Shown: piece by piece, positions 15,566 through 46,534 of the stretch | Layout of the letters: every line of letters starts with the position of its first letter | How positions within the stretch are numbered: position 1 is the stretch's first letter | Assembly (NCBI RefSeq): GCF_004353825.1 | Contig: NZ_SMNA01000013.1 | Coordinates: 62,001-126,000, forward strand | DNA from: Occultella glacieicola | GTDB lineage: Bacteria > Actinomycetota > Actinomycetes > Actinomycetales > Beutenbergiaceae | Direction: 5' to 3' | Length of the DNA stretch: 64,000 nucleotides | The notes under the pieces: model-generated | The model's database searches: none | Told to the model about the DNA's origin: nothing | Seen by the model: only the letters and a program-made list of their open reading frames with translations | Program-made: the position numbers and the translations under genes

Positions 15566-15650
15566 CGGAGGATGGGGGATTCGAACCCCCGAGGGCTTGC
15601 ACCCAACACGCTTTCCAAGCGTGCGCCATAGGCCACTAGGCGAATCCTCC
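15566..15650 (-). tRNA. tRNA-Ser (anticodon GGA)
   Basis: The 85-nt sequence folds as a class II tRNA: the acceptor arms GGAGGAT and ATCCTCC pair, the T arm is GGGGGTTCGAATCCCCC, the anticodon stem-loop is CGCTTGGAAAGCG with GGA in the loop, and there is a variable arm (TGTTGGGTGCAAGCCCTC region). CCA is not encoded. The gene points toward the decayed 12-15.5 kb segment, so its 3' end is the side on which an integrating element would have inserted. Confidence 0.95.
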
Positions 15651-17329: not shown

Positions 17330-17335
17330 GGACGG

Positions 17336-17428
17336 CAGACCCCCCGTGTGGCGTCATCCCGCTGAACCCCCCCAGGGCCGGAAGGCAGCAAGGGCAGGTG
17401 GGCTCTGATGGGTACGCGGGGGGTCCTT
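17336..17428 (+). ncRNA. ffs: Signal recognition particle RNA, bacterial small (4.5S) type
   Basis: The conserved apical hairpin is present: AGGGCCGGAAGGCAGCAAGG followed by GCAGGTGGGCTCT, with the GGAA tetraloop and the AGCA/AGG internal loops that bind Ffh. The outer ends pair (GACCCCCCGTG at 17338 with CGCGGGGGGTC ending 17425), closing a single long hairpin of about 90 nt. The location between the upstream gene and dnaX is the one seen in many actinobacteria. The RNA binds the GTPase Ffh to target membrane proteins. Exact ends are estimated from the pairing and the -10 box. Confidence 0.92.
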
Positions 17429-17531
17429 CATGCCCGCCTCTGCCCGGTCGGCGGCGGCCGCAGCCGGGGCTTCGCGGCCGGAGCGCACCGGCGACTGGGG
17501 CAACGTCGGTGCTGCCGCCTATTGTGATCGG

Positions 17532-41441: not shown

Positions 41442-43039
41442 CAGAACGTCGAACCGAGATCCTGGTGGTCGGGGGTGGGCTCGGCGGCGTCGCCGCGGCC
41501 CTGACCGCGGCCCGCCTGGGCCGGAAGGTGATCCTCACCGAGGAGACCGACTGGCTCGGGGGACAGCTGACCGCCCAGCTCGTGCCACCGGACGAGCACG
41601 CCTGGATCGAGTCCGACCTGGTCTCCCCGACCTACGCCGAGCTGCGGCGCCGGATCCGTGACTACTACCGGCGCAACTACCCGCTGTTGCCCGCCGCCGC
41701 CGAGAACCCGACCCTGAACCCCGGGCTCGGCTGGGTCTCCCGGCTCTGCCACGAGCCCCGCGTCGCGGTCGCCGCGATCGAGGAGATGCTCGCGCCGTGG
41801 CGCGCCTCCGGCGCGATCGAGGTCCTCCTCGAGCATGTCCCGACGGCGGTGCACACGGGCGGCGACGTGATCGACGCGGTGACGCTGAGCGACCGGCGCA
41901 CGGGGGACGAGCTGACCGTCGCCGCGGACTTCGTGGTGGACGCCACCGAGCTGGGTGACCTGCTCGAGCTCGGCGGGGTCGAGCACGTCATCGGAACCGA
42001 GTCGCGGGAGGACACCGGGGAGCTGCACGCTCCGGAACGGGCGGACCCGCTCGACCAGCAGGCCGTCTCCTGGTGCTACGCCCTGGAGCACCGGGAGGGG
42101 GAGGACCACACCATCGACCGGCCCGCGAGCTACCAGCACTGGGCCACGAAGGTGGACGACTTCTGGCCCGGACCGCAGCTGTCCTGGGTGGACGTGGAGC
42201 CGGTGTATCTGGGCAGGCGGGACCGGCCGATCTTCATGTCCGAGCCGACGCCGGGGGTGCCCTTCGACCTGTGGGACTACCGCCGGATCCTCGCCGCCGA
42301 GCAGTTCGACCCGGCCGCGGGCCTGCGCGACGTCTCCGCGGTGAACTGGCCGCAGATCGACTACTGGGAGGCGCCGCTGCTCGGTGTCGACGCCGCCGCG
42401 AAGGAGCGGGCCCTCGCCCGCAGCCGGGAGCTGTCCCTCTCCTTCCTGTACTGGATGCAGACCGACGCACCCCGGGAGGACGGCGGCACCGGCTACCCCG
42501 GGTTGCGGCTGCGGCCGGACGTGGCCGGCACCGCGGACGGGCTGGCCAAGACCGCCTACATCCGCGAGTCACGCCGGATCGCGGCCGAGTTCACCGTGCT
42601 CGAGCAACACGTCGGCGTCGAGGCCCGTGGCGTGGAGGCGGGCTCCGCCGTGTTCGACGACGCCGTGGGGATCGGCCACTACCGGATCGATCTGCATCCC
42701 TCCACGGCCGGCCGCACCTACGTGGACATCGAGTGCTTCCCGTTCCAGATCCCGCTCGGGGCCCTGCTCCCGGTCCGGGTGGACAACCTGCTGCCGGCGT
42801 GCAAGAACATCGGCACCACCCACATCACGAACGGGAGCTACCGCCTGCACCCGGTCGAGTGGTCGATCGGTGAGGCGGTCGGGGCGCTGGTCGCGTTCTG
42901 CCTCGACCGCGGCGTGGTGCCCCGCAAGGTGCGCGCCGACTCCGCCAGCCGCTCCGACTACCAGGAACTGCTGCGCGGTCGGCTCGGGGTGACCACGGCC
43001 TGGCCGGACGAGGTCCGGCGCACCCGACCCGGCCACTGA
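41438..43039 (+). CDS. FAD-dependent oxidoreductase
   Basis: The 533-residue protein opens with a Rossmann FAD motif (EILVVGGGLGGVAAALTAAR, GxGxxG at about 11-16) followed by TEETDWLGGQLTAQ. It has the internal DFVVDATELGDLLELGG and a C-terminal FAD block (LLPVRVDNLLPACKNIGTTH, YRLHPVEWSIGEAVGALVAF), the layout of the FAD_oxidored family. Relatives often lie in polysaccharide-use loci, but their reactions are largely undefined. No signal peptide, so it acts in the cytoplasm, presumably on the imported compound. The ATG overlaps the LacI stop (ATGA), making it the final gene of the operon. Confidence 0.88.
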   Translation: MTERRTEILVVGGGLGGVAAALTAARLGRKVILTEETDWLGGQLTAQLVPPDEHAWIESDLVSPTYAELRRRIRDYYRRNYPLLPAAAENPTLNPGLGWVSRLCHEPRVAVAAIEEMLAPWRASGAIEVLLEHVPTAVHTGGDVIDAVTLSDRRTGDELTVAADFVVDATELGDLLELGGVEHVIGTESREDTGELHAPERADPLDQQAVSWCYALEHREGEDHTIDRPASYQHWATKVDDFWPGPQLSWVDVEPVYLGRRDRPIFMSEPTPGVPFDLWDYRRILAAEQFDPAAGLRDVSAVNWPQIDYWEAPLLGVDAAAKERALARSRELSLSFLYWMQTDAPREDGGTGYPGLRLRPDVAGTADGLAKTAYIRESRRIAAEFTVLEQHVGVEARGVEAGSAVFDDAVGIGHYRIDLHPSTAGRTYVDIECFPFQIPLGALLPVRVDNLLPACKNIGTTHITNGSYRLHPVEWSIGEAVGALVAFCLDRGVVPRKVRADSASRSDYQELLRGRLGVTTAWPDEVRRTRPGH

Positions 43040-43138
43040 CCGCGGCCGGCGCCGTCGGGCGGGCCGGTGCGGCTCGGGGACAGTTGGTCCCCGGTCCCGC
43101 ATGCAGAGACGCCCGACGGCGCCCGCTCGCCGGGTGTG

Positions 43139-43144
43139 TAGTCT
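43139..43144 (+). promoter_or_regulatory. Putative -10 box of the DAHP synthase leader
   Basis: TAGTCT, preceded by TGTG, lies 6 nt before the leader ATG, so the transcript would start at the A of the start codon and be leaderless. No ribosome site precedes the ATG. A -35 hexamer is not evident in the GC-rich upstream sequence. Confidence 0.5.
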
Positions 43145-43150
43145 CCCCTT

Positions 43151-43213
43151 ATGCGTTGCGCACCCAGGTATTGGTTTAGCGTGTCGGCCCCGGCCGTCGC
43201 GCTCAGCCTCTGA
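43151..43213 (+). CDS. Aromatic amino acid leader peptide of the DAHP synthase gene
   Basis: The 20-codon frame reads MRCAPRYWFSVSAPAVALSL and stop. Codons 7-9 are Tyr-Trp-Phe, the three end products of the pathway whose first enzyme is encoded 114 nt downstream, and the Tyr and Phe codons are the A/T-ending TAT and TTT, which are rare in this GC-rich genome. The frame starts 6 nt after a -10 box. A ribosome waiting at these codons would cover the left arm of the hairpin at 43181. All this fits ribosome-mediated attenuation; I found no alternative reading of the gap. Direct evidence of translation is lacking. Confidence 0.72.
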   Translation: MRCAPRYWFSVSAPAVALSL

Positions 43214-43288
43214 CGCGCGCAACCGGAGCCGACACAGGGCGTGGACCAACGGGGTCCGCGCCCTTCGCCATTGAGGCGGGCGCTCCGG
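43181..43288 (+). promoter_or_regulatory. Candidate transcription attenuator of the DAHP synthase gene
   Basis: GTGTCGGCCCCGG (43181-43193, within the leader frame) pairs with CCGGAGCCGACAC (43223-43235) at 12 of 13 positions. Immediately after, GGGCGTGGACC (43237-43247) pairs with GGTCCGCGCCC (43253-43263) with one G-U pair, followed by TTCGCC, a weak terminator tail. CCGGAGC (43223-43229) can alternatively pair with GCTCCGG (43282-43288), which would span and could compete with the second hairpin. The set resembles the arms of an amino-acid attenuator, though which fold means 'on' is inferred. Confidence 0.6.
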
Positions 43289-43326
43289 GAGCTGGGGTGA
43301 TCCGCCCGGACCCGGAAGGACCAGCC

Positions 43327-44394
43327 GTGGATCTCACCCAGACCGAACGCACCAACGACCTGCGCGTGTTGCGCATGGAGCCGCTGCCGACCCCGAGCGA
43401 GGTGCTCGCCGAGCTGCCGCTGCCGGACGCCTCCGCCGAGCTCGTGGCCCGCTCGCGGGCGCACACCCAGGACATCCTGGCCGGCCGTGACCACCGGCTG
43501 CTCGTGGTGGTCGGCCCGTGCTCGGTGCACGATCCCGTGGCCGGTGTGGAGTACGCGCACCGGCTGTCCGCGCTCGCGGCCGAGCTGAGCGACGACCTGC
43601 ACGTCGTGATGCGCGTCTACTTCGAGAAGCCGCGCACCACCACCGGCTGGAAGGGCCTCATCAACGACCCCGGGCTGGACGGCAGCTACGACATCCCGCG
43701 GGGTCTGCGTCTGGCCCGGACCGTGCTGCTGGACGTGCTGGCCGAGGGCGTGAGCGCCGGGTGCGAGTTCCTCGAGACGACCTCGCCGCAGTACATCGCG
43801 GACACGGTCAGCTACGGAGCGATCGGGGCGCGAACGGTCGAGTCCCAGGTGCACCGGCAACTGGCCTCCGGGCTGTCCATGCCGATCGGGTTCAAGAACT
43901 CCTCCGACGGCGACGTCCAGGTGGCCGCGGACGCGTGCGTGGCCGCGGCCTCGCCACAGACGTTCCTCGGCGTGGATGCCCGCGGCCGGGCCGCGGTCGT
44001 CGACACCGCCGGCAACCCGGACTCCCACGTGATCCTGCGCGGCGGCCGCCGTGGCCCGAACTACGCACCGCCGGCGCTCACCGCCGCGCTGGACGTGCTC
44101 GAGCGGTCCGGCCTGGCCCGCCGCCTGGTCGTGGACGCCAGTCACGGCAACAGCGGCAAGGACCACGTCCGGCAGGCCGAGGTGGCCCGGGAGATCGCCG
44201 AACAGGTCGCCACCGGCGAGCACGGGATCGCCGGGGTGATGCTGGAGAGCTTCCTGGTGGCCGGGCGGCAGGAACCGGCGCCGACGGGACTCACCTACGG
44301 CCAGTCGGTCACGGACGCGTGCCTGTCCTGGGACACGACCGAGTCGGCGATGCGGAACCTGGCCACCGCGGCGGCGCGGCGACGCGCGAACTGA
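43327..44394 (+). CDS. aroG: 3-deoxy-7-phosphoheptulonate (DAHP) synthase, class I
   Basis: The 355-residue enzyme condenses phosphoenolpyruvate and erythrose-4-phosphate, the first step to Phe, Tyr and Trp. Class I (AroFGH) signatures are LLVVVGPCSVHDPVAGVEYA, VMRVYFEKPRTTTGWKGLIN, GARTVESQVHRQLASGLSMP, IGFKNSSDGDVQVAADA and LVVDASHGNSGKDH. The start is the GTG at 43327, 6 nt after a GGAAGGA ribosome site; ten upstream in-frame codons are not supported. The N-terminal extension of about 40 residues is where class I enzymes bind the inhibitory amino acid. Expression is probably also controlled by the leader upstream. Confidence 0.95.
   Translation: MDLTQTERTNDLRVLRMEPLPTPSEVLAELPLPDASAELVARSRAHTQDILAGRDHRLLVVVGPCSVHDPVAGVEYAHRLSALAAELSDDLHVVMRVYFEKPRTTTGWKGLINDPGLDGSYDIPRGLRLARTVLLDVLAEGVSAGCEFLETTSPQYIADTVSYGAIGARTVESQVHRQLASGLSMPIGFKNSSDGDVQVAADACVAAASPQTFLGVDARGRAAVVDTAGNPDSHVILRGGRRGPNYAPPALTAALDVLERSGLARRLVVDASHGNSGKDHVRQAEVAREIAEQVATGEHGIAGVMLESFLVAGRQEPAPTGLTYGQSVTDACLSWDTTESAMRNLATAAARRRAN

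Positions 44395-46459: not shown

Positions 46460-46534
<75 letters not shown>

Follow-up and report, generated by a model that had tools for sequence, protein, structure and literature searches.

The window, a stretch of 64,000 nucleotides from the Occultella glacieicola genome, contains a class I 3-deoxy-7-phosphoheptulonate (DAHP) synthase gene, aroG, and an upstream region in which a short leader frame is followed by a series of RNA segments and hairpins (Table 1). A FAD-dependent oxidoreductase gene on the same strand ends at 43039, upstream of the leader, and a NUDIX gene lies downstream of aroG on the opposite strand. The host genome has one class I aroG; its second DAHP synthase, of class II (PF01474), is encoded on another contig (G000:C5:110142-111434, locus L149), and the short frames in the 400 bases upstream of that gene include no aromatic cluster of three. 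The branch point served by DAHP synthase feeds three amino acids, and therefore its control must weigh three signals. A frame rich in codons for these end products directly upstream of a biosynthetic gene is a feature of attenuators, and we consider it likely that the leader is a ribosome-dependent attenuator of aroG; it would be of the kind of aroR of Corynebacterium glutamicum (Phe-Tyr-Phe), in a three-amino-acid form.

Parts of the aroG upstream region

Table 1. Features of the aroG locus, in window coordinates.
Feature	Position	Strand	Evidence
-10 box TAGTCT of the predicted leaderless promoter	43139..43144	+	sequence; TANNNT box in 60/60 leaders
Leader peptide frame MRCAPRYWFSVSAPAVALSL, 20 codons and stop	43151..43213	+	translation; conserved in genus and family
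Control codons TAT-TGG-TTT (Tyr-Trp-Phe)	43169..43177	+	sequence; F, W and Y in 52/60 leaders
Segment 1, within the leader frame, partner of segment 2	43181..43193	+	compensatory changes, columns 19-77, 20-76 and 26-70 of alignment A2
Segment 2, partner of segment 1 or segment 3	43223..43235	+	covariation, complementarity, own-versus-cross pairing
P2 hairpin, separating segments 2 and 3	43236..43264	+	all five modelled states; own-versus-cross pairing p 5e-5 (inflated by relatedness)
Small hairpin CGCC / GGCG	43266..43278	+	single-sequence folding; sequence mostly kept in family alignment
Segment 3 GGCGGGCGCTCCGG	43275..43288	+	complementary to segment 2 through GCTCCGG 43282-43288 and to segment 4 through GGCGGG
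Segment 4 GATCCGCC	43299..43306	+	partner is segment 3, or the aroG start region 43327-43333 in modelled states except the F stall
Shine-Dalgarno GGAAGGA of aroG	43314..43320	+	sequence
aroG, class I 3-deoxy-7-phosphoheptulonate synthase, GTG start	43327..44394	+	TIGR00034 477 bits; PF00793 269 bits

An earlier note on this DNA had proposed a leaderless Tyr-Trp-Phe leader peptide with an attenuator, and most of the parts that it named can be read as described. The frame opens with ATG at 43151, 6 nt after TAGTCT, runs for 20 codons that include TAT (43169), TGG (43172) and TTT (43175), and ends with TGA at 43211-43213. Three bases separate TTT from segment 1. The hairpin of segments 1 and 2 lies where the note had placed a 13-bp helix, which is in fact 8 bp, one C-A mismatch and 4 bp (12 of 13 positions) and hence not a perfect 13-mer. 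The second hairpin, P2, is also present, with 12 bp formed by 43236-43247 and 43253-43264 instead of the limits 43237-43263, and the proposed seven-base alternative partner (43282-43288) is the full complement of 43223-43229 in segment 2.

Several properties of the region stand out within the window. With z -3.2, its fold is more stable than that of any of 200 dinucleotide shuffles, and among 17 ATG or GTG codons (7 on the forward, 10 on the reverse strand) with a TANNNT box ending 5-8 nt upstream, only the one at 43151 starts a short frame that contains an aromatic cluster. Of 310 short window frames, 2 have Y, W and F side by side in whatever order, and the aroG leader is one of them. TAT and TTT are rare, as had been claimed, with TAT 15 versus TAC 288 and TTT 4 versus TTC 396 in 37 long window frames picked by G+C at codon positions. 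A promoter and terminator scan of 43000-43400 called neither a full sigma-70 promoter nor a U-tract terminator.

The element has no Rfam family at gathering score in the window and 20 relatives; the best score over it was 18 bits, for a microRNA model with a cut-off of 70, and the weak Rfam matches, at E up to 10, are probably accidental. Other Rfam calls in the window are a small SRP RNA at 17335-17431 (+) and tRNA genes at 46461-46534 (-) and 15566-15650 (-).

Conservation of the leader and its helices

The leader was followed through 168 aroG loci, drawn from 80 of at least 591, plus the best 30 per search and 20 extra stretches, and grouped by hand into 128 actinobacterial loci and 40 from other phyla. 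By a script whose output was checked by eye, an aromatic leader precedes aroG at 95 of the 128 actinobacterial loci. Eight script matches were dropped on inspection (L116, L142, L148, L152, L165, L166, L167 and L169), and the leader of L094 and the gene starts of L006, L098, L102, L103 and L104 were set by hand. The 33 loci at which the script detected no leader comprise 12 in family f35, 11 in f4 (probably Bifidobacteriaceae), one in f38 and nine named ones: two of Nocardiopsis, four of Bifidobacteriaceae, two of Streptosporangiales-type metagenome-assembled genomes and one of Gryllotalpicola. Outside the 168, all nine further loci inspected have an aromatic leader (10 were taken from 170 matching genomes).

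Closer to the host, QYWF or RYWF is kept in the four Occultella genomes compared. Class I aroG occurs in 17 of 24 genomes of the host family, and an aromatic leader precedes all 17 genes, one of them weak (L094, WRY, detected at a lower threshold only). The family clusters read YWF (four), WYWRF or WYWF (eight), FYW (one), WRYF (two), WYVY (one) and WRY (one). Of the 159 genomes of the order, 33 carry class I aroG; nine of these belong to f4, whose class I aroG genes yielded no such aromatic leader. The loci of f4 and f35 without a detected leader are L105-L107, L110, L116, L118, L140-L148, L152-L154 and L165-L169, and f4 genomes mostly carry two aroG copies close together.

Leader starts were taken as the in-frame ATG or GTG at most 14 codons before the aromatic cluster, and promoter spacing and codon choice were examined in 60 leaders, namely 47 thinned from 82 of type 1 and all 13 of type 2, unthinned. 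In the type 2 architecture (YFWF or YWF), segment 2 (GAGCCGG) by eye lies in a hairpin of its own directly after the leader; it occurs in Rhodococcus, Nocardia, Pseudonocardia, Amycolatopsis and others (L014, L026, L028, L030, L033, L035, L039, L041, L054, L076, L160, L162 and L164) and was excluded from the helix statistics. All 60 leaders have a TANNNT box whose end lies 5-8 nt ahead of such a start, against 0-3 of 60 for controls slid by -40 to +50 nt, and a Shine-Dalgarno-like motif precedes only 7 of 60 starts. This comparison is strong evidence for a leaderless start, and it supports the arrangement that the earlier note had proposed.

The aromatic cluster holds F, W and Y in 52 of the 60 leaders (four are without F and four without W), so that Trp is found in 56; over all 95 leaders, which the script had chosen for an aromatic cluster so that these counts are conditional on that choice, 77 have all three, four are without F and 14 without W. 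F is the last aromatic residue in 53 of 60, and the last aromatic codon lies 5 nt before a GGC core in 36 of 47. The control stretches of the 60 leaders use TAT 65 times versus TAC 5, and TTT 54 times versus TTC 15. Tyr and Phe are usually each read by one tRNA species, and therefore the choice of TAT and TTT probably sets decoding speed or leaves the site unpaired.

Helices were examined in alignment A2, which contains 30 upstream regions: 16 of the 17 family members (L087, which hardly differs from L086, was omitted) together with 14 regions of other families. RNAalifold found helices 1:2 and 3:4 unprompted. In helix 1:2, 28 cells are changed on both sides, a number reached by 0 of 500 shuffles and compared with 0-5 in slid versions; the covariation score is also above all shuffles, and two of five covariation measures fail against shuffles (two-sided pairs 140/500, further pair types 383/500). 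Helix 3:4 is paired in 99% of cells, with one-sided changes only. Of the 30 sequences, 29 have a segment 3 that is complementary to segment 2 along 6-10 contiguous bp; in the exception, L093, segment 3 no longer matches segment 2 and could instead form about 10 bp with the Shine-Dalgarno region.

In 47 thinned regions, segments paired better within a species than between species for helix 1:2 (own-versus-cross z -11.2) and helix 2:3 (-4.6), whereas eight other segment pairs ranged from +0.7 to -2.7. In an earlier run the control pair r1/r5 had z -2.5, so small values mean little, and the p values are inflated by relatedness. The result for 3:4 was discarded because the compared regions overlap. 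An anti-Shine-Dalgarno helix 4:5 was attractive by eye and was dropped for weak statistics (p 0.002 versus 0.007 for a control pair, hardly better, both subject to the same inflation), and competition of segment 2 with the 3' arm of P2 was rejected for lack of covariation (z 0.3). At the level of sequence, these comparisons establish the leader, its promoter spacing and control codons, helix 1:2 and the 2:3 complementarity. The two helices of segment 2 are mutually exclusive and the first overlaps the leader frame, as in ribosome-mediated attenuators; their modelled exchange has L089 and L093 among its exceptions.

Searched with a covariance model of the element, R1, the host genome yields a single strong match, at 90.2 bits, with the runner-up at 16.4. 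In 158 genomes of the order it matched 24 at E < 1e-4, each time just upstream of class I aroG, and these are exactly the genomes outside f4 that have class I aroG, with no other genome among them; the model was built with members of four of the five matched families, and seven genomes of f9 were not in it. Nine more genomes, all without class I aroG, have weak matches (E 0.003 to 0.07).

Of the checks that the earlier note had proposed, conservation of frame and hairpins in relatives was thus passed by the family leaders, the helix changes and the model matches, and its picture of an attenuator-like leader gains support from the conserved frame, the helices and matches tied to aroG. We give next to no credence to the opposite reading, a chance frame in an ordinary 5' UTR, in favour of which nothing is left after the comparison; it is refuted in its simple form by the promoter spacing in 60 of 60 leaders, the compensatory changes in helix 1:2 and the covariance-model matches specific to aroG.

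Ribosome position and the output of the element

As a ribosome-dependent attenuator, the element would work as follows. The aroG mRNA would start at the leader ATG or within one base of it, and a ribosome would translate the leader peptide. A pause with the last aromatic codon (Phe) in the A site would place the front edge of the ribosome over segment 1, leaving segment 2 free to pair with segment 3, and aroG expression would rise. With ample charged tRNA the ribosome would be at the stop codon or gone, segment 1 would pair with segment 2, segment 3 would be released to its downstream partners, and aroG expression would fall. That starvation would raise aroG is a direction taken from physiology and from C. 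glutamicum aroR.

The predicted exchange of 1:2 for 2:3 was modelled by masking 30 nt at each codon, with a default front edge at A site +11, and refolding the RNA. In the window, P(1:2) and P(2:3) are 0.98 and 0.00 with the ribosome at the stop, and 0.06 and 0.87 with it on F, the only aromatic codon at which the default edge makes the exchange. The corresponding means over the 30 sequences are 0.97/0.00 with the ribosome three and four codons short of the last aromatic codon, 0.63/0.02 one codon before it, 0.19/0.54 on it and 0.00-0.03/0.68-0.87 for the nine codons after it, returning near the stop to 0.72/0.17 eleven codons on (n=25) and 0.79/0.11 twelve codons on (n=10). The modelled exchange is reversed in L089 (2:3 at the stop, none on F), only 0.33 in L096 and none in L093, and L002 prefers the 2:3 fold when ribosome-free.

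With a longer front edge the W codon of the window reaches 0.66 at A site +15, an extension of 2 nt not being enough, and the Y codon reaches 0.11 at the longest edge tried (+17); at +15 the codon before the last also switches in means over 10 picked sequences. Since the modelled switch needs the ribosome on the last codon, F, the leader should respond to Phe first. The integration of all three aromatic pools, as the earlier note had it, is therefore only partly upheld: the model speaks against equal integration, its trigger being whichever aromatic codon comes last (Phe in 53 of 60 leaders), with W contributing given a longer footprint and Y hardly at all. Three codons in fixed order offer a system for how one ribosome sums or ranks several shortages, and the same leader raises the question why rare U-ending codons are used.

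A stall caused by the nascent chain, with the leader acting as an arrest peptide, is very unlikely. C-terminal APGGA, ALEGPA and SAPAVA are conserved within clades, as such a peptide might require, but these residues are encoded by segment 1 and following bases that covary with segment 2, and because segment 1 bases covary in this way the conserved peptide end is explained by RNA constraint. The N-terminal part is variable, and the synonymous choice of TAT and TTT points to decoding speed or RNA and not to the peptide.

How the proposed attenuator would act on aroG is divided between transcription and translation, because there is neither a U-tract after segments 3 and 4 nor a systematic opening of the aroG start at equilibrium in the window and 47 relatives. 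One possible output, which we hold with less than even confidence, is transcriptional: in the manner of trp-type attenuators, RNA polymerase would stop at P2 or 3:4 whenever 2:3 is not formed. It is consistent with C. glutamicum aroR, where according to the available part of a review aroF transcription rises under Phe limitation (PMC11802643), with the T-rich stretches that follow P2 in some clades (4 of 47 sequences have 7-9 T in 12 nt; the average is 3.8 versus about 2 expected from 16.7% T), and with the proteobacterial aroG leaders, since all 15 that were inspected by eye, out of 19, have a hairpin and T-run. A trp-type arrangement, in which a terminator hairpin with its U-tract competes against an antiterminator, is absent from the window: the letters after P2 are TTCGCCATT, no terminator was called, and P2 is formed in all five modelled states. 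Downstream of segment 3, 43 of 47 sequences have at most 3 T per 8 nt. Segment 3 is made after P2, so that 2:3 cannot prevent termination at P2, and no covariation links segment 2 to the 3' arm of P2 (z 0.3).

A translational output, with segments 3 and 4 governing access to the Shine-Dalgarno and start codon of aroG, is held with the same, less than even confidence. Segment 4 lies just before the Shine-Dalgarno, and the minimum free energy fold of the window, a single sequence, has the GTG start region paired to 43299-43305 in every state except the F stall; the Shine-Dalgarno complementarity of segment 3 over about 10 bp in L093 also fits, and aroR is named a translational regulatory leader in the available part of one engineering paper (PMC7356990). 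Against this, ensemble start accessibility in the window is 0.38 in the stall, stop and free states alike, and the 4:5 complementarity is weak. A first accessibility measure went up in 19 cases and down in 5 between stall and stop, and three later regions were without clear trend among the 47 relatives (Shine-Dalgarno 10 up and 8 down, start 15 and 14, wider region 13 and 7).

Taken whole, the reading of one run of Tyr, Trp and Phe codons, with slow, rare TAT and TTT and with Phe last as the trigger that passes segment 2 from segment 1 to segment 3, in a widespread leaderless actinobacterial element whose output is neither a U-tract terminator nor a simple equilibrium opening of the start, may be correct, and we advance it with reserve.

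Related leaders in Actinobacteria and other phyla

The earlier note could not say whether the YWF type had been described, and had overlooked the related aroR leader before C. glutamicum aroF, a Phe-Tyr-Phe leader already described by Neshat et al. 2014 (via PMC4046766, PMC11802643; also PMC7356990, PMC6892785). As far as the available parts of these papers go, both are short aromatic leaders before a DAHP synthase gene, ribosome-dependent in C. glutamicum (PMC4046766, PMC11802643) and probably so in the aroG leader, with Phe-Tyr-Phe in the former (PMC11802643) and Tyr-Trp-Phe in the latter. Three loci of a Mycobacteriaceae-like genus (g163, which would be Corynebacterium) have RFYF leaders behind which segments 1, 2 and P2 can be recognised by eye, so that aroR and the aroG leader probably belong to one element family, of which FYF is the form already described. 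On that view the present comparison takes aroR beyond Corynebacterium into many families of actinobacteria.

In the available text on C. glutamicum AroR, Phe limitation raises transcription and Tyr limitation does not (PMC11802643), which agrees with the modelled Phe-first response; another paper, also seen in excerpt, reports control of aroF by Phe and Tyr (PMC7356990), with which the low modelled Tyr response contrasts.

The trp, ilv, leu and cys leader attenuators of actinobacteria are likewise short leaders with codons for the end product, going by excerpts of two studies (PMC1262725, PMC8079986), and several of those of Streptomyces lividans are reported as transcribed leaderless (PMC8079986). 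Unlike the element described here, these sets include, in the portions available, no aroF or aroG (PMC1262725) and no DAHP leader (PMC8079986). The mycobacterial leaderless polycysteine uORF attenuators resemble it in that a ribosome-read leaderless frame is involved, there in translation attenuation (Canestrari et al. 2020, as partly quoted in PMC13236596; a candidate polycysteine uORF appears in an excerpt of PMC4633059), and differ in responding to one amino acid and in the genes concerned (PMC13236596).

For the same enzymatic step in other phyla, partial texts suggest attenuation for aroF of Escherichia coli and Shewanella (PMC2659441) and an attenuator before aroF-tyrA of Vibrio (table in PMC1173090), and describe uORFC-13-1 with Phe codons before aroF in Acholeplasma (PMC8632094), a motif that differs further in having a ribosome-binding site and an adjacent terminator. 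None of these systems is described, in the parts available, as a leaderless Tyr-Trp-Phe frame (PMC2659441, PMC1173090, PMC8632094). A literature search found no Tyr-Trp-Phe leader before an actinobacterial DAHP synthase; most subscription papers were outside its scope, so absence is unproven.

Because proteobacterial aroG has parallel Y/F/W leaders with classical terminators, control of DAHP synthase through multi-aromatic leaders suggests itself as a general bacterial strategy, described so far in scattered cases.

Among the 40 loci from other phyla, 22 were script-positive, and 19 were left after three had been dropped by eye (L042, L072 and L074). The 19 leaders, for example FYFWYY and YFWYF, belong to Xanthomonas, Bradyrhizobium, Mesorhizobium, Acidovorax and others (L044, L049, L050, L057-L066, L069, L073, L075, L078, L079 and L081), and the 15 inspected all have, by eye, a G+C-rich hairpin and then a T-run, as in a classical transcription attenuator.
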